DNA of 64,000 bases from the NCBI RefSeq assembly GCF_038443705.2, contig NZ_CP151767.2, positions 868,001 to 932,000 on the forward strand. Reading direction: 5' to 3'. Under the pieces are notes generated by a model. That model had not been told where the DNA came from, made no database searches, and saw only the letters and a list, made by a program, of their open reading frames with translations. Shown here one piece after another: positions 2,485-42,401 of this stretch (position 1 is its first letter; each line of letters starts with the position of its first letter). The position numbers were made by a program, and so were the translations under genes. The stretch comes from Yoonia sp. SS1-5 (GTDB taxonomy: Bacteria > Pseudomonadota > Alphaproteobacteria > Rhodobacterales > Rhodobacteraceae).

Positions 2485-3666
2485 TCAGCTGGTCGCGAAC
2501 CGCAAAAGCTTGATGGCCGCAAAATCGCTCACCGCGCCGCCGACACGCTTTGTTGCATAGAAAAGGACATGCGGTTTGGCGCTGAACGGATCGCGCAAAA
2601 CGCGCAGATCGGGGCGCTCGGCGACCGTGTAACCAGCCGTGAAATCACCAAACGCAATAGAATAACTGTCCTCGGCGATATCCGGCATATCTTCGGCGAT
2701 CAGCACGCGATACCCCATCAGGCGGGCGGGCTCACCAACCGCCAGGCCGTCGACCCAGACGAAGCGACCGTCATTATCCTTCAACTTGCGGACATGTCCG
2801 GCAGTCTTGGAATTCATCACGAATGTACCATTTGCGCGGTACTCAGCCCCAAGCGAATAGACCAGATCGACAATCGGATCCGCGCGGGTGATGCCGCCTG
2901 CCGTGCCGGACGCCACATAGCCAATATTGCCCCAATCCCATGTGTCATTCTCGACAGCGGGATAGCTCAAAAGCCCGGTAGGTTTGTCAGCACCATCACC
3001 CGAAATGAAGGCCGCTGCCTCTGAACGGGCAAACTTGTCGGCGATGCGCCCGGCCAGCCAGGTCTCGATATCAAAGGCGCTGTCATCCAGCAGACGCTGC
3101 GAGGCCTTGGGCAATGCGGACAACTCATGCAGCGGGATCGTGATCCGCTCGATCTGCGGGGTTGTCGTCTCGGTAATGGTGCTGGCTTCGGTGGCCCAAC
3201 CAGCGCCCAGGTCCGAATGATCCACCAGCACATCATAAGAGGTCGCATCGACATTAACGACATTTGCAATCGCACGAATGGATGCGGTTGAACTCAGCGT
3301 GTTCTGGATCGTCTCTGCGGTCTGCGGATCCACCAGATAACCACCTTCGGCCGCGATGGTCGTCGCTAAGGCCTTACCCTCGATCTCCAGGCCACGCAGG
3401 GCGTCATCGTCGCCAGAGCGTAGATAGGCGGCAAAGGCCTTTTGATGCGGCGCTTCCTCGCGCGCAGCGGCCGACAGCGCGGGACGGGCAGCAATCATCG
3501 TCTTTCGGTCCAACTTATTCATCCGGTCATCCTGTCTTTGAAGTTTGGCGCTAACGCCGTTGGAGAAGTCTTTGAAATCGTTCATGAAGCCGGCAATCGC
3601 GCGGTTCAGTTCCTCGGCCGGAGACATATCTTCCCCAGCCTGAGACTTGGTCTCAGTTTTACGCAT
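2485..3666 (-). CDS. GTA major capsid protein (gene 5 homologue, HK97 fold)
   Basis: A 393-residue phage major capsid protein of the HK97 type. The first 60 residues or so are charged and helical (scaffold-like delta domain, with MNDFKDFSNGVSAKLQRQDD). The mature shell domain follows, starting around EGKALATTIAAEGGYLVDP, with the P-loop-like segment TTTPQIERITIPLHELSALPK and the family motif INDKF-like region RIADKFARSEAAAF. The prohead protease gene lies directly upstream, consistent with removal of the N-terminal domain during maturation. The GTA capsid packages short random pieces of host DNA. Confidence 0.9.
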   Translation of the reverse strand: MRKTETKSQAGEDMSPAEELNRAIAGFMNDFKDFSNGVSAKLQRQDDRMNKLDRKTMIAARPALSAAAREEAPHQKAFAAYLRSGDDDALRGLEIEGKALATTIAAEGGYLVDPQTAETIQNTLSSTASIRAIANVVNVDATSYDVLVDHSDLGAGWATEASTITETTTPQIERITIPLHELSALPKASQRLLDDSAFDIETWLAGRIADKFARSEAAAFISGDGADKPTGLLSYPAVENDTWDWGNIGYVASGTAGGITRADPIVDLVYSLGAEYRANGTFVMNSKTAGHVRKLKDNDGRFVWVDGLAVGEPARLMGYRVLIAEDMPDIAEDSYSIAFGDFTAGYTVAERPDLRVLRDPFSAKPHVLFYATKRVGGAVSDFAAIKLLRFATS

Positions 3667-3698: not shown

Positions 3699-4229
3699 TC
3701 AGTCCCGCGCCATCACGCGGCGCGCAGTCTCAAAAGCGGCGGCCAAATCACGCATCAGATCAGCTTGGGGCGCATCACCCTTTGCTGCCACACGCGCATC
3801 CGGAAGCATCGGGAATGTGACAAGCGACACCTCCCAAAGCTCCAACTCGGACAAAAGGCGGCGCCCCTTGTCATCCTTGTGGGATTTCACAGTGCGATAT
3901 CCGATCGACAGGCCGTCAATCGCCCCTGCCCCGATCAGCGATGCAGCCTCACGGCCTTTGGCAACATCCGTCAGCAAGCGGCCCTTGACCCAAAGGCCCT
4001 TGGCGTCCTCGCGGACCTCATCCCAGACGCCAATGGGCTGTGCGGGATCATGTTGCCATAACATCTTGACTGACCGCTGATTGGTCAGTGATGTGGCATA
4101 GGCGCCGGCAACAACGGTATCGCCGCCCTGATCGGGTTTCCCGAATAGGGAGGCATAACCGCTGATGATCGTCCCATCGGTCACGGTGACCTCCGTGCCC
4201 AACGCGCAGAACTTGTGTTCCAAACTCAT
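3699..4229 (-). CDS. GTA prohead protease (gene 4 homologue, HK97 family S78)
   Basis: A 176-residue phage prohead protease, MSLEHKFCALGTEVTVTDGT at the start. This serine protease family processes the capsid and scaffold domain during head maturation. Visible family features are the ISGYASLFGKPDQGGD segment, the histidine in MLWQHDPAQPIGVW (about residue 60) as candidate catalytic His, and the GLSIGYR segment (about residue 110) that carries the candidate Ser. It overlaps the small g3.5 gene by four bases and lies 32 bases before the capsid gene. Confidence 0.88.
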   Translation of the reverse strand: MSLEHKFCALGTEVTVTDGTIISGYASLFGKPDQGGDTVVAGAYATSLTNQRSVKMLWQHDPAQPIGVWDEVREDAKGLWVKGRLLTDVAKGREAASLIGAGAIDGLSIGYRTVKSHKDDKGRRLLSELELWEVSLVTFPMLPDARVAAKGDAPQADLMRDLAAAFETARRVMARD

Positions 4230-4438
4230 ACCGGTCTCCCGCTCAGTGTTTTTACAATTTCAAAGATCAGCAAACCAGCGCAGCTGCAGACGATCACCCA
4301 AATCTGCCATTCCAGCCGGGACACCATCTGCTCGATCCGGCTTAGGCGGACATCGACCTGCGCAAACCAGAAGTCAGACACTGGTGGCGGCGAATACTGG
4401 CGAGGGCGCCCTTTGAGGTCGACGATTTTATCGCTCAT
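4226..4438 (-). CDS. GTA gene 3.5 homologue, small single-pass membrane protein
   Basis: A 70-residue protein starting MSDKIVDLKGRPRQYSPPP. It has a short helical segment (VRLSRIEQMVSRLEWQ) and then one hydrophobic stretch of about 20 residues (IWVIVCSCAGLLIFEIV). Small proteins with this layout lie between the portal and prohead protease in GTA clusters (orfg3.5), but their role is not known. The start at 4438 is inside the end of the portal gene. A longer frame from 4486 exists but would run far into the portal gene. Membrane placement is inferred from hydrophobicity only. Confidence 0.65.
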   Translation of the reverse strand: MSDKIVDLKGRPRQYSPPPVSDFWFAQVDVRLSRIEQMVSRLEWQIWVIVCSCAGLLIFEIVKTLSGRPV

Positions 4439-5609
4439 CGCCAGCCTCCAATGCCGGTAGCCCCAGCAGGTTGCGCTTTTCGGCATCTGTCAGGAATGCC
4501 GCTTCGGAAACGCGGCGCCATTGTGCATCGCGTTCCACCGACAAGGCCGGGATCTGATCAAGGTCGGGCCGAAGCTGAACCTGCTCGCCATGATAGTCCG
4601 ACAACCAGTCAGCAAGGGCGCTGGCGACACGGGTCGCCAGTGGCAGAACCGTTAATCGGTAAAAGGCGCGGTTGGCCTCCTGATAATTCGCATATGTGGC
4701 GTCCCCCGGAATGCCCAGCAACATTGGCGGGACACCAAAAGCGACCGAGATTTCGCGGGCGGCGGCCTCTTTGGTTTTCTGAAACTCCATGTCGGACGGG
4801 GAAAAGCCCATCGGCTTCCAGTCCAGACCGCCTTCCAGCAGCATCGGCCGGCCCGCATTCCGGGCGCCCTGGTGCTGGGTCTCCATCTCGCCCAACAGCC
4901 GGTCATACTGATCCGCGCTCAGTGAGGCCTGACCATCCGCGCCGCGATAGACAATCGCGCCTGATGGGCGGGCGGCATTGTCCAGCAAGGCCTTGGACCA
5001 ACGGGATGCGGCGTTATGCACATCAATGGCACTTGCGGCGGCCTGCAAAGGCGAGAATCCATAGTGATCGTCTTGGGGATGAAAACTCTTGATATGGCAG
5101 ATCGGGCTGTGATCGGGGGACACGGCAAAACGATGCTTGCGACCACCAACATTATACTCATAGGCCGCCGGCCAACCATCGGGACCAGGCACAATCGACA
5201 TCCGGTCCGAGCGCAACACGTGCAACTCGACAGGCAAGTCCTCATCCGCTACCGCCTCGAGATAGCCGTTGCCGGTCAACAGGATCTGGCCAAACAACGC
5301 CTCCAGCAACTCCGCGCGGCCCTGCCCGCTATTCGGACGGGCAAGCAAAGTCTGCACCGGGTGCATCTCATAGCGACGTTCGGCATCCTGCAAGACCAGC
5401 GGCAGGGCCGCGGCCGCCTCCGCAATCAGCTTGACCGCACGAAAGCCGATGGGATTGCCGGTGAACCCGGCCCGCGTCAGCGATGTGACGTCACGCGGAC
5501 TCCACACCACACGGCCTGCACCCTGCATCGCCATGACACGGCCAGTCGCCGAGGCCTTGACCTCGGCAGCGGGCACATCAGGCTTTGCACGGTTTAGAAA
5601 ATCAAACAT
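4428..5609 (-). CDS. GTA portal protein (gene 3 homologue, HK97 family)
   Basis: A 393-residue portal protein. Portal rings occupy one capsid vertex, let DNA in during packaging and anchor the tail. The sequence shows the family order: PIGFRAVKLIAEAAAALPL near residues 55-73, LLTGNGYLEAV near 115, HIKSFHPQDDHYGFSPLQAA near 165-185, and the conserved REISVAFGVPPMLLGI and YANYQEANRAFYR stretches near 290-320. The ATG at 5609 is preferred over the TTG one codon upstream. It is separated from the terminase gene by 111 bases without a recognisable gene. Confidence 0.9.
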   Translation of the reverse strand: MFDFLNRAKPDVPAAEVKASATGRVMAMQGAGRVVWSPRDVTSLTRAGFTGNPIGFRAVKLIAEAAAALPLVLQDAERRYEMHPVQTLLARPNSGQGRAELLEALFGQILLTGNGYLEAVADEDLPVELHVLRSDRMSIVPGPDGWPAAYEYNVGGRKHRFAVSPDHSPICHIKSFHPQDDHYGFSPLQAAASAIDVHNAASRWSKALLDNAARPSGAIVYRGADGQASLSADQYDRLLGEMETQHQGARNAGRPMLLEGGLDWKPMGFSPSDMEFQKTKEAAAREISVAFGVPPMLLGIPGDATYANYQEANRAFYRLTVLPLATRVASALADWLSDYHGEQVQLRPDLDQIPALSVERDAQWRRVSEAAFLTDAEKRNLLGLPALEAGDER

Positions 5610-5720
5610 CAATCACTCCTTGGTCCGGGCCAGTCTGACCGGCTGCAATCCACGAAAAACAATTTGCGTCAGAAGAGTTACAAAGAAGAAACGGGTCCGT
5701 ACGGGGATCGGGCAACACCC

Positions 5721-7076
5721 TCAAAGGCCGCGAATACGGGGGTCCCGCCACTTTGCAGCCGGATCAATCATCAGATCCTGCAGGGCCCAGACCAATGCAT
5801 CAACACGGTCCGGGGACCCCTGCCCGGCATAGCCCCTGATGGTCATTTGACACATCTGATCCTCCAACGCGCCTAAACCGTGCAAATGCGATACACGGCC
5901 CTGCTCATACAAGGCGGCAACAGGTTCGGCGCGGGCCGACTTGCTACGGGTCGCGTGGACAGATCTGTAAGGCACCAAAGGATCCACCTGACGGATTACA
6001 GCCTCAACCATGTCGCCACCCTGATTGACCTCTGCAACAAGACGGTCGGCATCATGACGCCGCATGGCCGCGATGGCTGCCTTGGCCCATTCCGCAGGTC
6101 GGGCCGCATGCATCGTGGCATCCTCAAGCACGATGGCCCGCCAATCCTGGATCGGGCCAGACATATCGACACCAGCAATGATGATCCCGCATTCGTCCGA
6201 TTTGGCATGAGATGTGCCGGGGGGGTCAATGGCGACAACAACGCGGGTCAGTGACGGGGCTTTTGCAATCTGCGCCGTGGCAAGCTGCTTGGGCGTCCAC
6301 AAGGCATCATCAACCTCTGCCTGCATGATGCCATCAATCTCTTGCCGACCAAGGGATGTGCCACCGTATCGGGCCTCGACCTCTGTCAGAAAACTCGCCG
6401 CCAGATTGGCCCGATTGGCATATGTCGACGCATGGGTCACCACGGTTGTTTCCTGCTCAAGTATATTGGCCAAAACGGCAGATCGCCGGGGGGTCGTGGT
6501 CACGCAAACGCGGGGATCCACGCCAAGCCGTACGGCAAACTGCAGCATGTCCCATGGATCACCGGTCAGGGGCCATTTCGCCAGCTCATCTGCCCAGGCC
6601 GCATCAAATTGCGGGCCACGCAATGCCTCCGGGGCGTGGGCCGAAAAGGCCTGCGCGCTGGCACCATTCGGCCATATCAGCATTTGACGACCGGCAATCC
6701 ATGTCGGTTTTCGGTCCGCGGGGGACACGGCCATGATCCCGCTCTCCCCAAAGATCATGACCTCGCGGGCTTGCTCCAGCGTATCGGCGACAAGGGCCAC
6801 ACGGGCCGAAATACCGGGGGCCACACGTGTGGGGCCCTCTACCTGCTGACGGACCCATTCCGAACCTGCACGGGTCTTGCCCGCACCACGGCCGCCCAGA
6901 ACCACCCAGTTGCGCCAGGCGCCAGCCGGGGGGATCTGGTGCGGCATGGCCCAGAACTCGAACAGGTAAGGCAGGGCTTCAAGCTGCCGGGGGGTCAGTG
7001 TCTTCAAGAACGCTGCTTGCGTCGGTCGTGTTGCGGATGCGATCAAGCTGGCGCCCGATCTCAATCCGGATTGCAT
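5721..7076 (-). CDS. GTA terminase large subunit (gene 2 homologue)
   Basis: The DNA-packaging motor ATPase/nuclease of the gene transfer agent. The ATPase domain shows a Walker A-type loop GGRGAGKTRAG, a Walker B/DEAD-like segment AWADELAKWP and the coupling motif VCVTTTPRRS. The C-terminal nuclease half has VVAIDPPGTSHAKSDECG with acidic residues suited to metal binding. The start is uncertain. The frame is open to 7172, but the ATG at 7076 (MQSGLRSGASLIAS) gives about 27 residues before the conserved LTPRQLEALPYLFEFW segment, close to relatives. Even so it overlaps the end of g1 by 98 bases. Confidence 0.88.
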   Translation of the reverse strand: MQSGLRSGASLIASATRPTQAAFLKTLTPRQLEALPYLFEFWAMPHQIPPAGAWRNWVVLGGRGAGKTRAGSEWVRQQVEGPTRVAPGISARVALVADTLEQAREVMIFGESGIMAVSPADRKPTWIAGRQMLIWPNGASAQAFSAHAPEALRGPQFDAAWADELAKWPLTGDPWDMLQFAVRLGVDPRVCVTTTPRRSAVLANILEQETTVVTHASTYANRANLAASFLTEVEARYGGTSLGRQEIDGIMQAEVDDALWTPKQLATAQIAKAPSLTRVVVAIDPPGTSHAKSDECGIIIAGVDMSGPIQDWRAIVLEDATMHAARPAEWAKAAIAAMRRHDADRLVAEVNQGGDMVEAVIRQVDPLVPYRSVHATRSKSARAEPVAALYEQGRVSHLHGLGALEDQMCQMTIRGYAGQGSPDRVDALVWALQDLMIDPAAKWRDPRIRGL

Positions 7077-37837: not shown

Positions 37838-39145
37838 ATGATCCCACGCTACGCACGCCCCGAAATGACAGCAATCTGGGATCCGGCAACCAAGTTTCGG
37901 ATATGGTACGAGATCGAGGCCCATGCCTGCGACGCACAAGCCGCGATTGGCGTGATCCCCAAGGAAAACGCCGCCGCCGTTTGGAAAGCCAAGGACGTTG
38001 AATTTGACGTGGCCCGCATCGACGAGATCGAGGCCGTGACAAAACATGACGTGATCGCCTTTCTGACGCATCTGGCCGAACATATCGGGGCAGAGGATGC
38101 GCGCTTTGTGCATCAGGGCATGACCTCCTCCGATGTTCTTGACACAACGCTGAACGTCCAACTGGTGCGCGCCGCGGACATTCTGCTGGCGGACATGGAT
38201 CGCGTGCTTGCGGCACTGAAAACCCGCGCGATCGAGCATAAGGACGACGTCCGGATCGGGCGCAGCCATGGTATCCATGCAGAACCAACCACGATGGGCC
38301 TGACCTTTGCGCGCTTCTACGCCGAAATGGATCGGGGTCGCGCACGCCTGCTGGCGGCCCGGGCCGAAATCGCAACCGGTGCCATCTCGGGCGCGGTTGG
38401 CACATTTGCCAATATCGACCCTTCGGTCGAGGAACATGTGTGTGCGAAAATGGGCCTGACCCCCGAGCCGATCAGCACCCAGGTCATCCCCCGTGACCGG
38501 CATGCGATGTTCTTTGCCACGCTGGGTGTCATCGCCTCAAGCATCGAAAATATCGCAACCGAAATCCGGCATATGCAGCGGACAGAGGTCCTTGAGGCCG
38601 AAGAGTTCTTTTCCAAGGGGCAAAAGGGCAGCTCTGCCATGCCCCATAAACGCAATCCGGTCCTGACCGAGAATCTGACAGGGCTCGCCCGACTGGTGCG
38701 GATGTCGGTGGTGCCGGCACTTGAGAATGTCACCCTCTGGCACGAGCGCGATATCAGCCACTCCTCGGTTGAACGGGCCATAGGTCCGGATACGACGATC
38801 ACGCTGGATTTTGCCTTGAACCGGCTTGCAGGCGTCATCGAAAAGTTGGTGATCTATCCCGGCAACATGCTGGCAAATATGAATAAATTCCGCGGTCTGG
38901 TCATGTCGCAGCGTGTGTTGCTCGCACTGACCCAGGCTGGTGTCAGCCGCGAGGACGCGTATCGGCTGGTCCAACGCAATGCGATGCGGGTCTGGGAGCA
39001 AGGGGCCGATTTCAAAACAGAGCTTCTGAACGATGCCGAGGTCAAGGCAGCGCTGTCATCGGCCGAAATCGAGGAAAAATTCGATCTTGGGTATCATACC
39101 AAACATGTCGATACGATTTTCGCCCGTGTGTTTGGCACGCGCTAG
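37838..39145 (+). CDS. purB: Adenylosuccinate lyase
   Basis: A 435-residue enzyme for two steps of purine synthesis, removing fumarate from SAICAR and adenylosuccinate. It starts MIPRYARPEMTAIWD, as usual for the family. Seen are TSSDVLDTTLNVQL (about 95), GRSHGIHAEPTTMGL with catalytic His (about 140), and the signature GSSAMPHKRNPVLTENLTG (about 265) with the flexible loop Ser. The frame extends upstream to 37649 but without family features. It lies convergent to luxI, separated by a strong hairpin. Confidence 0.96.
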   Translation: MIPRYARPEMTAIWDPATKFRIWYEIEAHACDAQAAIGVIPKENAAAVWKAKDVEFDVARIDEIEAVTKHDVIAFLTHLAEHIGAEDARFVHQGMTSSDVLDTTLNVQLVRAADILLADMDRVLAALKTRAIEHKDDVRIGRSHGIHAEPTTMGLTFARFYAEMDRGRARLLAARAEIATGAISGAVGTFANIDPSVEEHVCAKMGLTPEPISTQVIPRDRHAMFFATLGVIASSIENIATEIRHMQRTEVLEAEEFFSKGQKGSSAMPHKRNPVLTENLTGLARLVRMSVVPALENVTLWHERDISHSSVERAIGPDTTITLDFALNRLAGVIEKLVIYPGNMLANMNKFRGLVMSQRVLLALTQAGVSREDAYRLVQRNAMRVWEQGADFKTELLNDAEVKAALSSAEIEEKFDLGYHTKHVDTIFARVFGTR

Positions 39146-39195: not shown

Positions 39196-39888
39196 CTAGA
39201 TCACCGAGGGCGCATGTACTGGCAGTTGCTGCGGCACATGTGTCGCGCGCGGAACCTGCGATGGGATCACGTTCAATGTATCGGACTTGCGTCGATTGAT
39301 TGCGCTTGGCACGGTTGGCATGCTCACACAGGCATAGCGGCGGCCATCTTCGGCATTGCGGTAGGGATCACCGATTCGCACCGCATCGTAGCCCAGCTTG
39401 CGCAATGTCCGCGCCATCGCCAGCGGTGAAAGTGACATCAGTTCTGTCGCACCCTGCTTGCGGGCCACGCCGATCGCGCCATCCAGCATCAGTGACAGGC
39501 ACTCCGACCGTTCGGCCCCTGTTGTGACCTCGTCCGAAATGACGACCCGGGTAACTTCCCAGACATTCGCCGTGGCATCTGCTTTTGGCAAAATATCCGC
39601 TGGAATCCCGATGAGCTTTCCTGCGACAGCATCACGCAGCATATACGTATGCGAACCCCATTTGGCCGTTGTGGCCATGACACGCGCGCCGCCTACAACT
39701 TCGCCGTCACGCAACGCCAGCGAATAGTACGCAGTGGGGTTGTCGTACTGGTCCATCTCGACATCGTCATCATGCGGGATCTGCCATCCAAGCTGATCTA
39801 CAAAGAACCGCTTACGCAGTCCCAGGAAATCATAGAATGCGGAGCCATACTTATGAAGCTGCGCCAGATTAAACGTAATATTTTCCAT
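39196..39888 (-). CDS. LuxI family N-acyl-homoserine lactone synthase
   Basis: A 230-residue autoinducer synthase that joins an acyl-ACP and S-adenosylmethionine. The conserved Arg, Phe, Trp and acidic residues are in LRKRFFVDQLGW and EMDQYDN (residues about 25-50). GGARVMATT (about 65) has the usual Arg, and WEVTRVVIS (about 110) has the Glu-Arg pair. The last 30 residues form an unstructured tail that is not part of the family core. The start at 39888 is preceded by GAGAGAAAG. It lies downstream of the luxR-type gene, 167 bases away, on the same strand. Confidence 0.93.
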   Translation of the reverse strand: MENITFNLAQLHKYGSAFYDFLGLRKRFFVDQLGWQIPHDDDVEMDQYDNPTAYYSLALRDGEVVGGARVMATTAKWGSHTYMLRDAVAGKLIGIPADILPKADATANVWEVTRVVISDEVTTGAERSECLSLMLDGAIGVARKQGATELMSLSPLAMARTLRKLGYDAVRIGDPYRNAEDGRRYACVSMPTVPSAINRRKSDTLNVIPSQVPRATHVPQQLPVHAPSVI

Positions 39889-40055
39889 AGTGATCTTTCT
39901 CTCTGCTATACGGCGAGTGGGGTGTTGATCCACAGCCATTGATTGTTGCGTGTACTACAGCAGCTACAAATTAGCTCGAATTGTTCGGAAAGGTGAGAAA
40001 AATCAACGTCAACTTCGAAACTGTTCAAAATTGGCGCTTAATAGCAGCTTAAAGG

Positions 40056-40664
40056 CTATATCAGCCCGTATTGACTCGCCAAGGTCGCGGCCTGCGTACC
40101 GGTCTTGGCACCAAGTTTCAGCTTGGCATTTTTCAGACGTTGCTTGACAGCACCTTCGCTGACACTCAACTCATGGGCGATTTCCTTGAGGCGTTTACCA
40201 TCCTTTACCATGCTCAAAGCTTCCAATTCAGCACGAGTCAAGTTGGTCGGCGGTGCCGTTTCATTGTGCCGTCTGGTCAGAAACGCCTTCAACAGCTTGA
40301 CTTCCAAATCGGTATATTCGCGGTCAGAACGGGTGAAAGACCCAAAGGAACGCTGCCCATCCGGGCTGCCATCAAAAATGGAAATCGTCACGCCGTACCG
40401 CATGCCAAAGGCCTGCGCCTGCCTGACGATTTTTTTCGGATCGTCCAGCGGAAGATCGCTCCAACGGCAGGTGCCGACATTGCCGTATGCCCATCTAACA
40501 ACTGGATCAAAAAGCATAAAACGATGGTTGGTGTAATGCTCAACCCAGTCGGGCGGCAGTTCATTAACCTCTTCCATCGGGAATGCAAACCCGATCCTTA
40601 GTGCTATGTAATATCCCGCTGGAGCTAGCTGTCTAATCTCCTCCGGGCCCATGAGTGCCGACAT
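40056..40664 (-). CDS. LuxR family AHL-dependent transcriptional regulator
   Basis: A 202-residue regulator. The N-terminal AHL-binding domain (1-140) shows the family pattern: DWVEHYTNHRFMLFDPVVRW (Trp, Tyr, Asp, Pro), CRWSDLP (Trp), FGMRYGVTISI (Gly). The C-terminal HTH is LTRAELEALSMV, then GKRLKEIAHELSVSEGAVKQRLKNAKLKLG at 150-190. It precedes the luxI-type gene on the same strand, and its start is 138 bases from a divergent gene that encodes a close relative of its N-terminal half. Regulation of luxI is likely. Confidence 0.94.
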   Translation of the reverse strand: MSALMGPEEIRQLAPAGYYIALRIGFAFPMEEVNELPPDWVEHYTNHRFMLFDPVVRWAYGNVGTCRWSDLPLDDPKKIVRQAQAFGMRYGVTISIFDGSPDGQRSFGSFTRSDREYTDLEVKLLKAFLTRRHNETAPPTNLTRAELEALSMVKDGKRLKEIAHELSVSEGAVKQRLKNAKLKLGAKTGTQAATLASQYGLI

Positions 40665-40802
40665 TCAAGTACCTCGAGGCTTCCTTTTCGCATAAAAGCC
40701 TTGTTGCCTTTGCACTGTTATACCTACAATGGCGATACGCAATGCCCTCATTGAGAGTATTTCGAACGTAATGTGTTTGGCAACCGGAAAGCGAGTACCA
40801 GA

Positions 40803-41306
40803 ATGTCTCGGACGCAAGTGGAGATCAGTGGGGTCTTGGGCGAGTTAAAAGAGTTGGCACCGGCCGGGTACGCGATTGGTCTGCAGATCAAATACACAAC
40901 GCCGAAATTCATGTTTCAAAGCTACAGCAAAGACTGGCTCAACTACTACTCACAAAATGGTTTGCTGATGAACGATCCCACGCTTGGCTGGGGTTTCGAG
41001 AATGTCGGCGCTGTGCGCTGGTCCAAACTGGCTGACCAGGACACGGCTGGCGTTCTCAAGATGGCGGCGGAATATGGCATCAATTTTGGAATCACCTGCG
41101 CCAAGGAAACCAATGACAGTGACGGCATTCGCAGCATTGGCAGTTTTGCCCGCGGCGACAGGGACTTCACCGATGATGAGGTCCGCAAGATTTCTTTGGC
41201 ATTTGACGAATTGCACGATGGCACCGAACATCAGGCGCAACTGTCCCCCGACACGGTGACGCAGCTGAAAAACATGTCGGTCATGGTCACACATCCGGGG
41301 TCCTGA
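40803..41306 (+). CDS. AHL-binding-domain protein without DNA-binding domain
   Basis: A 167-residue protein that matches only the ligand domain of the neighbouring LuxR. DWLNYYSQNGLLMNDPTLGW keeps Trp, Tyr, Asp and Pro, RWSKL keeps the next Trp, and YGINFGITCA keeps the Gly. Then GSFARGDRDFTDDEVRKI parallels GSFTRSDREYTDLEVKLL of the LuxR. The sequence stops after LSPDTVTQLKNMSVMVTHPGS, at the point where the HTH would begin. No HTH is found in the following bases in any frame. It may sequester AHL or form inactive heterodimers, as TrlR-type proteins do. A GTG ten codons upstream is an alternative start. Confidence 0.85.
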   Translation: MSRTQVEISGVLGELKELAPAGYAIGLQIKYTTPKFMFQSYSKDWLNYYSQNGLLMNDPTLGWGFENVGAVRWSKLADQDTAGVLKMAAEYGINFGITCAKETNDSDGIRSIGSFARGDRDFTDDEVRKISLAFDELHDGTEHQAQLSPDTVTQLKNMSVMVTHPGS

Positions 41307-41357: not shown

Positions 41358-42401
41358 ATGGATTTTTCAAACAATACTGCCGGTACGGCCGCACTGACCC
41401 GCCGACGCAAGGCGGCGATGATTGTGCAAATGCTCATCAGTGATGGTGGCAGCCTGTCTTTGTCGCGCCTGCCCGAAGGGTTGCAAGAGGTGCTGACCGG
41501 GGAACTGGGCGCAATACGTCTTGTGGATAAGGGCACCGTCTCTGCCGTTGCCGAAGAATTCGTGACAGAGTTGGAGGCCGTTGGCCTTGCCGCCCCCGGA
41601 ACCCGCGATGGCGCGATCATGGCGCTGGCGGACCATCTTAGCCCCTCGCTGGCGGACAGGTTGCGCGCGCAAACCGATGGCGTGCGCAACGGGGATCATT
41701 GGCCGCGCATTGTCGACCTTCCCATCGAAACCATTGTTGACATGATGACAGCGGAAAGCATCGAAATCTGCGCGGTCGCCTTGTCGAAACTGCCTGTGTC
41801 AAAGGCCGCAAACGTCCTGGCCAAAACGCCGGGCGACCGCGCGCGCCGCATCACCTTTGCGATGTCAAAAACCGCCGACATCACACCCGATGCCGTCCGG
41901 CGCATCGGCGCATCGCTGGCCAAGGAATATGGCCGCCCCCGCGACATCGCCTTTGAAAAGGCGCCGGTCCCGCGCCTTGGCGCGATACTGAATTCCACGG
42001 TCACCGACACCCGCGAGGACGTGCTGGAAGGGCTCACATCCATGGACCCCGGCTTTGCGACCGAAGTGCGCAAGGCTATCTTTACGTTCAAGGATATCGC
42101 CTACCGGGTCAAAGCGGTCGATATCCCCAACAGCCTGCGCAGCATTGATGGCGCGGATTTGACCAAGGCCCTGACCGCCGCGCTGGCCGGCGAAGAGGCG
42201 CTGCAGAAATCGGCCGAGTTCATATTGGCATCGCTGTCACAGCGCATGGCCACGCAACTCCGCGAGGAGGTGCAGGAATTCGGTAAGATCAAGAAGGCGG
42301 ATGGTGAAACCGCGATGGCAGCGGTCACAAAGGCCATTCGCGATCTTGTAGATGCTGGCGTGATTACCCTGATCGACCCCGATGAACAGGATGAAGAATA
42401 G
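41358..42401 (+). CDS. fliG: FliG-like flagellar motor switch protein
   Basis: A 347-residue protein with the plan of FliG, the rotor protein that sets direction of flagellar rotation. The N-terminal domain has LTRRRKAAMIVQMLISDGG near residue 14. The middle region is helical. The C-terminal torque domain has RKAIFTFKDIAYRVKAVDI, then LRSIDGADLTKALTAALAGEE with charged residues used for stator contact. No other flagellar gene is near, so it is solitary here. Divergence from standard FliG is considerable, so a related rotor role is possible. Confidence 0.75.
   Translation: MDFSNNTAGTAALTRRRKAAMIVQMLISDGGSLSLSRLPEGLQEVLTGELGAIRLVDKGTVSAVAEEFVTELEAVGLAAPGTRDGAIMALADHLSPSLADRLRAQTDGVRNGDHWPRIVDLPIETIVDMMTAESIEICAVALSKLPVSKAANVLAKTPGDRARRITFAMSKTADITPDAVRRIGASLAKEYGRPRDIAFEKAPVPRLGAILNSTVTDTREDVLEGLTSMDPGFATEVRKAIFTFKDIAYRVKAVDIPNSLRSIDGADLTKALTAALAGEEALQKSAEFILASLSQRMATQLREEVQEFGKIKKADGETAMAAVTKAIRDLVDAGVITLIDPDEQDEE

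Follow-up and report, generated by a model that had tools for sequence, protein, structure and literature searches.

What is the function of a LuxR-type protein that has an AHL-binding domain and no DNA-binding domain, encoded beside a complete LuxR/LuxI pair? This question is raised by a locus of Yoonia sp. SS1-5, lying in a stretch of 64,000 nucleotides that was analysed as a whole (the window). The gene order of this locus has been published twice. Cude and Buchan (2013) described a 'D topology' of luxRI, comprising luxR and luxI with fliG and adenylosuccinate lyase, for six roseobacters, and their table gives two luxR loci for each of these. For Loktanella and Rubellimicrobium, Subramoni (2015) described a 'group 4' ordered fliG - hp - abd - luxR - adenylosuccinate lyase, and suggested that ABD proteins could sequester ligand or interact with LuxRs. 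Both orders are the same as that in the window, and Roseobacter sp. CCS2, which is included in the D topology (Cude and Buchan, 2013), carries a truncated gene of the window type (L174). Text-term searches of Cude and Buchan (2013) turned up nothing about an absent HTH, and the parts of the two papers covered here give no mechanism for the truncated protein; both predate the report on CerN, a protein of Cereibacter sphaeroides (PMC11655674). In the open-licence literature, the association of the fliG/luxR/adenylosuccinate lyase order with quorum sensing was found only in these two papers, and CerN itself, judging mostly by titles, only in the 2024 paper; among the matches listed for LuxRs without a DNA-binding domain, no title linked CerN to the fliG - purB gene order. 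The gene order (2013 and 2015), the general hypothesis (2015) and the Cereibacter mechanism (2024) are, thus, already in print, and the link to CerN, the distribution, an asymmetry in the ligand pockets and a conserved tail are new here.

The truncated gene and its neighbours

The truncated gene (40803..41306, plus strand) encodes a protein of 167 aa (P0001) and is separated from fliG by 51 bases, exactly as in an earlier reading made from the letters without database searches (the sequence-only reading). That reading described an AHL-binding protein without a DNA-binding domain, divergent from an intact LuxR-LuxI pair, and the Pfam domains agree: the protein matches Autoind_bind (PF03472) at 50.4 bits (curated cut-off 23) and has the fold of a LuxR ligand domain, and GerE is absent from it. 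The partner LuxR (40056..40664, minus strand; 202 aa) has both Autoind_bind and GerE, with the GerE match starting at residue 141. LuxI comes next after LuxR (39196..39888, minus strand; 230 aa from the ATG at 39888; Autoind_synth). The outer neighbours, both conserved, are purB (37838..39145, plus strand), the adenylosuccinate lyase gene, named from the published gene order alone, and a divergent fliG (41358..42401, plus strand). When used as a query against its own genome, the truncated protein retrieved itself, a protein on the other contig with 40% identity, the neighbouring LuxR (35%) and a weak match (E 0.19).

The truncated protein had been thought to end cleanly where the HTH should start, and this has to be corrected. 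Its L147 falls in the same column as the Leu that opens the HTH in 111 of the 119 partner LuxRs, which leaves the protein with about 21 residues corresponding to HTH helix 1. These residues, 147-167 (41241..41303, plus strand), form a conserved tail comprising the putative equivalent of HTH helix 1 and an end motif, LxxMSxxxTHP; a structure model predicts a helix at 149-163, with lower confidence. Over 119 truncated proteins, the mean site rates of the tail are 1.00 (147-160) and 1.07 (161-167, with 82% of cells filled), near the 0.95 of the domain, and Leu155 is retained in 111 of these proteins, Ser159 in 96, Thr163 in 95 and His164 in 88. Judging from the alignment, the protein retains the first helix position of the HTH and a conserved end, about as conserved as the domain itself. 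Five truncated proteins, those of L090, L141, L146, L153 and L154, end directly after the ligand domain, without the tail, and three of these (L090, L146 and L153) form one branch in a tree of 121 rows. The claim that no HTH is left downstream was upheld: in a six-frame HTH-profile scan of the 400 bases 3' of 120 truncated genes, the best match (E 0.021) belonged to another genome, the window gave no match at E up to 1, and none of the 120 stretches contained an HTH. Because the loci outside the genus were chosen with the truncated-protein profile, the test is fair chiefly inside it.

Conservation and selection within the genus

A search of 146 genomes gave matches to the truncated protein in 73, including 53 of the 56 genomes of the genus; the gene is intact in 52 of these 56 and broken in one (L080 of G049), and three had no match. 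Of 27 named loci found by close alignment, many carry the label Yoonia or Loktanella and the remainder mostly that of uncultured Rhodobacteraceae; Y. vestfoldensis DSM 16212 is among the carriers of the gene. The order purB - luxI - luxR / truncated gene - fliG is constant in the fetched loci of the genus, except at contig ends and in the broken L080, and the 51 intact truncated proteins besides that of the window have 154-168 aa and C-termini close to the same place. One-ratio codon models gave an omega of 0.095 for the truncated gene (52 genes), 0.052 for luxR (52) and 0.070 for luxI (51), values that are rough because each is a single ratio on large, saturated divergences. The six pocket residues are among the slowest sites, with a rate of 0.06 against a domain mean of 0.95 (119 truncated proteins).

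The broken copy in G049 and the three genomes without a copy might point to a decaying pseudogene, a reading that we consider virtually excluded: decay is ruled out by the 52 intact copies in 56 genomes, by the omega of 0.095 and by the slow, near-invariant pocket sites, and the window copy has no signs of decay. The sequence-only reading had itself argued from pocket conservation against decay and proposed a dN/dS check. The two findings that it named as refuting it, an intact HTH at the same position in relatives and neutral drift of the pocket residues, were looked for and both came out in its favour: the downstream scan gave no HTH, and neither alignment counts nor site rates showed drift. 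The truncated gene is, thus, probably functional.

Two loci are damaged and one is unusual. An early stop and a frameshift interrupt the truncated gene of L080 (3992-4600), which continues into a remnant of fliG; luxI is split over two frames and LuxR is open, indicating a locus in decay. In L213 (G026; 5580-6700), neither luxR nor the truncated gene was found, fliG lacks its first half, luxI is reduced to a remnant of 30 residues, and the gap holds an ORF read as transposase-like. In L061 (G029; 3742-4992), luxR and the truncated gene are about 1.2 kb apart, as against about 0.14 kb elsewhere, and the truncated gene starts with TTG as the ORF was called.

Distribution in the family and pairing with LuxR

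The truncated-protein profile found matches in 255 of 395 genomes of the family, a count that includes full-length LuxRs. The luxI-luxR-truncated luxR arrangement, which it had been proposed to look for in relatives, recurs both in the genus and outside it: among 66 truncated loci fetched outside the genus, a partner LuxR was adjacent in 65 and called divergent in 61; a 'convergent' call, for L089, stems from the extents of the open frames, and by its start this gene is divergent as well. Conversely, the truncated gene lay alongside at 82 of 87 places with a partner-type LuxR. A luxI gene was present in 69 of these 82 pairs; the other 13 had none in the fetched stretch, at least one of them (L122) lying at a contig end. 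For the five partner-type LuxRs without a truncated gene, the fetched stretch held no luxI, no second LuxR and no remnant of a truncated gene, so that luxI goes with the truncated gene (69/82 vs 0/5; Fisher p 2.3e-4, relatedness not being controlled for).

This pairing bears on the idea, put forward in a general way for proteins with an ABD alone (PMC4338825), that the truncated protein is a sink that buffers AHL alone and never contacts LuxR. The intact pocket would allow this, but such a sink requires neither a particular partner nor a conserved tail, and the truncated gene stands beside one LuxR subtype in 65 of the 66 loci fetched outside the genus. A pure signal buffer, which the sequence-only reading had also considered, is less likely because of this nearly constant pairing, and we regard it as very improbable; the same reading's broader view, of a functional protein consisting of an AHL domain alone and probably acting through the neighbouring LuxR, fits the data.

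The fliG neighbour and flagella

Within the genus, an intact truncated gene and an intact fliG co-occur (52 of 52 genomes with the truncated gene, 0 of 4 without), but the two are adjacent, and a single deletion removes both. FlhA was found in only 36 of the 56 genomes, and 16 genomes without it keep the truncated gene, LuxR and fliG intact. In 11 of these 16 there was no match to flagellin, and in five only a fragment of 41-45 residues. The module is, thus, not a switch for flagella alone. The four genomes without an intact truncated gene all lack FlhA (Fisher p 0.013), three of them being assemblies that are 72-92% complete. A second, higher-scoring FliG occurs in only three of the 56 genomes (G016, G029 and G039), within about 25 kb of their own FlhA, and the window-type fliG (41358-42401) may have a role outside the flagellum. 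The genome of the window has two FlhA-family matches (G000:C2:1338034 and G000:C2:2768698) and, hence, possibly two export systems.

Relationship to CerN

The closest biochemically tested relative is CerN of C. sphaeroides. CerN binds the LuxR-type protein CerM only in the presence of AHL, and CerN with AHL weakens the binding of CerM to DNA, both in vitro and in E. coli (PMC11655674, sections 3.4 and 3.9); AHL alone also weakened CerM binding in vitro (PMC11655674). CerN does not, therefore, block a LuxR activated by AHL, but relieves one that binds DNA without it (PMC11655674). The published gene order is cerN, cerM, cerR, cerI, and the authors stress a Trp57Phe change in CerM (PMC11655674). 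In the C. sphaeroides genome used here, which matches plasmid pC of strain 2.4.1 at 100% over 2748 bases, a 160-aa protein without an HTH and a 206-aa LuxR are divergently encoded, with a second LuxR and then LuxI beyond the latter; these genes were taken to be cerN, cerM, cerR and cerI because the layout matches the published order. CerN scored 149 bits with the truncated-protein model and 101 with the partner model, and CerM 106 and 215.

In the more careful of two trees (75 rows), a starred branch (99/96) holds 30 of the 31 truncated rows, CerN among them, and a second starred branch (100/100) unites the 31 partner rows, of which CerM is one, with two further rows, C. sphaeroides paralogues. 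The main split of a quick tree of 121 rows is the same (99, starred), and CerN shares a branch there with all 53 truncated rows (83, not starred); the domain alignment behind both is short (143 columns). The partner LuxR of the window falls on the CerM side. In the 75-row tree, the full-length proteins closest to the truncated lineage are LuxRs here called GtaR-type, after a published orthogroup, which carry the HTH that the truncated lineage lacks; the protein on the other contig with 40% identity groups with them, and the window genome has a GtaR-type LuxR at G000:C1:38481. The exception among the truncated rows is L141 (G435; 2992-3621), which joins the GtaR-type rows in the 75-row tree and the truncated branch in the 121-row tree. 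Its first placement suggests that the HTH may have been lost twice, and an independent loss in L141 is possible; its truncated protein lacks the tail, and a pocket Tyr discussed below, which only three partners retain, is present in its partner.

On this phylogenetic evidence, the truncated gene is best described as the Yoonia member of an old lineage without an HTH, to which CerN also belongs. Both proteins are autoinducer-binding proteins of about 160 aa without an HTH, on the same branch, and both genes are divergent from a LuxR of the CerM side with luxI further downstream; the W, Y, D, P and W residues of the pocket are shared, and the six pocket positions read Y W Y D P W in the window protein, as in CerN. 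The two loci differ in that cerR lies between cerM and cerI and has no counterpart in the window, in that fliG and purB flank the window locus, unlike the CerN locus, in that the window partner keeps Trp57, unlike CerM, and in that the window protein is seven residues longer (167 vs 160). A recent duplication of the neighbouring LuxR is ruled out by both trees, which place the two genes in separate lineages. The sequence-only reading had rightly noticed that the protein shares a GSFxRxDRxxTDxEV segment with its neighbour, but this is no special link between the two, because similar segments run through both families.

The ligand pocket in truncated proteins and partners

The ligand residues named in the sequence-only reading are present, and the Tyr-x3-Trp pair of the window protein aligns with that of RhlR. 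We take Tyr53 of TraR, Tyr56 of LasR and Tyr64 of RhlR (the last equivalence obtained by counting in the alignment) to be a Tyr that touches AHL. This position, Tyr41 in the window protein, is a Tyr in 115 of the 120 truncated proteins, a Phe in four and a His in one (the broken L080), and all 16 GtaR-type LuxRs have Tyr. The 119 partner LuxRs have Leu in 86, that of the window included, Phe in 27, Met in three and Tyr in three, namely L081 (same genus), L123 and L141. The other pocket residues of the partners are retained, with Trp57 in 118 of 119, Tyr61, Asp70 and Pro71 in all and Trp85 in 114, and the Trp57Phe change of CerM is absent here. The partner LuxRs may, therefore, still bind AHL, and a loss of AHL binding by them is a prediction only. 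The retention of Tyr in the truncated proteins and its absence from most partners, together with the behaviour of CerN, suggest that the truncated protein is probably the AHL-sensing subunit.

The precedent invoked in the sequence-only reading was TrlR of Agrobacterium, likewise a LuxR-type protein without a DNA-binding domain, for which a dominant negative action was proposed. TrlR forms dead mixed dimers with the AHL-activated TraR (PMC11655674; PMC13043044), and a protein of this kind would raise the quorum threshold of the LuxR in the window. The absence of an HTH, the intact AHL pocket, the adjacent LuxR and the retention of most pocket residues by that LuxR would all suit an anti-activator, but 116 of the 119 partners lack the Tyr53 equivalent, and CerN, the nearest tested relative, targets a LuxR that binds DNA without AHL (PMC11655674). 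TrlR is, moreover, 88% identical to TraR (PMC11655674), whereas the window protein, with 35% identity and from a different old lineage, is not a near-identical copy of the resident activator. TrlR may, thus, serve as a precedent in function, not in origin, and action of this type seems unlikely in Yoonia; the class of mechanism had been named correctly, with CerN rather than TrlR as the closest tested relative.

Candidate regulatory DNA

A conserved palindrome upstream of luxI, AATTAGnGCTAAnTT (39967..39985, minus strand), is a candidate LuxR site and could serve in autoregulation. Sequences of the form TTAGnnCTAA, with at most one mismatch, occur upstream of luxI in 28 of 51 genomes (about 4.6 expected), and GTTGCC/GGCAAC occurs between LuxR and the truncated gene in 41 of 51 (2.6 expected); both contrasts are overstated, because the expected numbers were obtained by simply shuffling sequences that are related to one another. 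In the window, the palindrome pattern has two matches with up to two mismatches, the site itself with none and the other with two (1.94 expected), and between LuxR and the truncated gene it is found in 4 of 51 genomes (3.8 expected), which is not above chance. The divergent intergenic region (40665..40802) contains two candidate operator or leader elements: the conserved CTTGTTGC at 40700-40707 and a conserved 20-base stretch, TTGGCAACCnGAAAGCGAGT (40777-40796), directly upstream of the start of the truncated gene. Part of the GTTGCC/GGCAAC conservation falls in the latter, which may also contain the ribosome site. The published CerM site is at most slightly in excess between the divergent genes, with a mean best match of 9.5/15 in 51 regions (9.0 when shuffled) and 11/15 or more in 7 of 51 regions (10 of 255 shuffles).

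Proposed mechanism and significance

The reading that we prefer, with a probability of about 0.6, is that the truncated protein is the AHL-sensing half of a split receptor with a CerN-type mechanism. The divergent CerM-type LuxR would bind DNA as a dimer at low signal; AHL produced by LuxI would fold or activate the truncated protein, which would then pair with LuxR via the autoinducer-binding domains of the two proteins. Having a single DNA-binding arm, this mixed complex would leave the DNA. The likely effect is AHL-dependent release of LuxR from DNA. Domain content, gene order, phylogeny, selection, pocket asymmetry and pairing are observed for the window system; CerN-type action in Yoonia sp. 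SS1-5, and the genes responding to it, we infer from Cereibacter, the sole source for the AHL-dependent steps. This reading is favoured by the placement with CerN and CerM in the trees, the same layout, the biochemistry of CerN, the asymmetry at the Tyr53 position, the pairing, and the omega and pocket rates. Against it stand the partners that keep most pocket residues, including Trp57, the three partners with Tyr and the four truncated proteins with Phe, the effect of AHL alone on CerM in vitro, the additional cerR of Cereibacter, the at most slight excess of the CerM site, the 13 of 82 pairs without luxI and the placement of L141.

The near-obligate pairing (82/87) and the conserved C-terminal tail would also suit a lasting complex, in which the AHL-loaded truncated protein stabilizes or redirects LuxR and does not remove it from DNA. 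A dimer with a single HTH is, however, expected to bind palindromes poorly. As CerN with AHL lowers CerM binding (PMC11655674), we consider such an activating co-receptor rather improbable.

The split receptor may not be confined to Yoonia. It is conceivable, although we would put this at somewhat below even odds, that many Rhodobacteraceae have a two-subunit AHL receptor, kept even after the loss of flagella, in which the HTH-less subunit, with a full pocket and a newly conserved C-terminal tail, reads the signal, and a LuxR without the pocket Tyr hears AHL only through it; CerN and CerM would then be one case of this receptor. The analysis links a published and unexplained roseobacter gene order to the sole biochemically tested case, and makes a prediction at the level of single residues, at the Tyr53 position. 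The expected sign of the circuit changes, as AHL may take LuxR off DNA via a second receptor, and caution is called for in reading such luxR-luxI pairs as ordinary AHL-activated switches.
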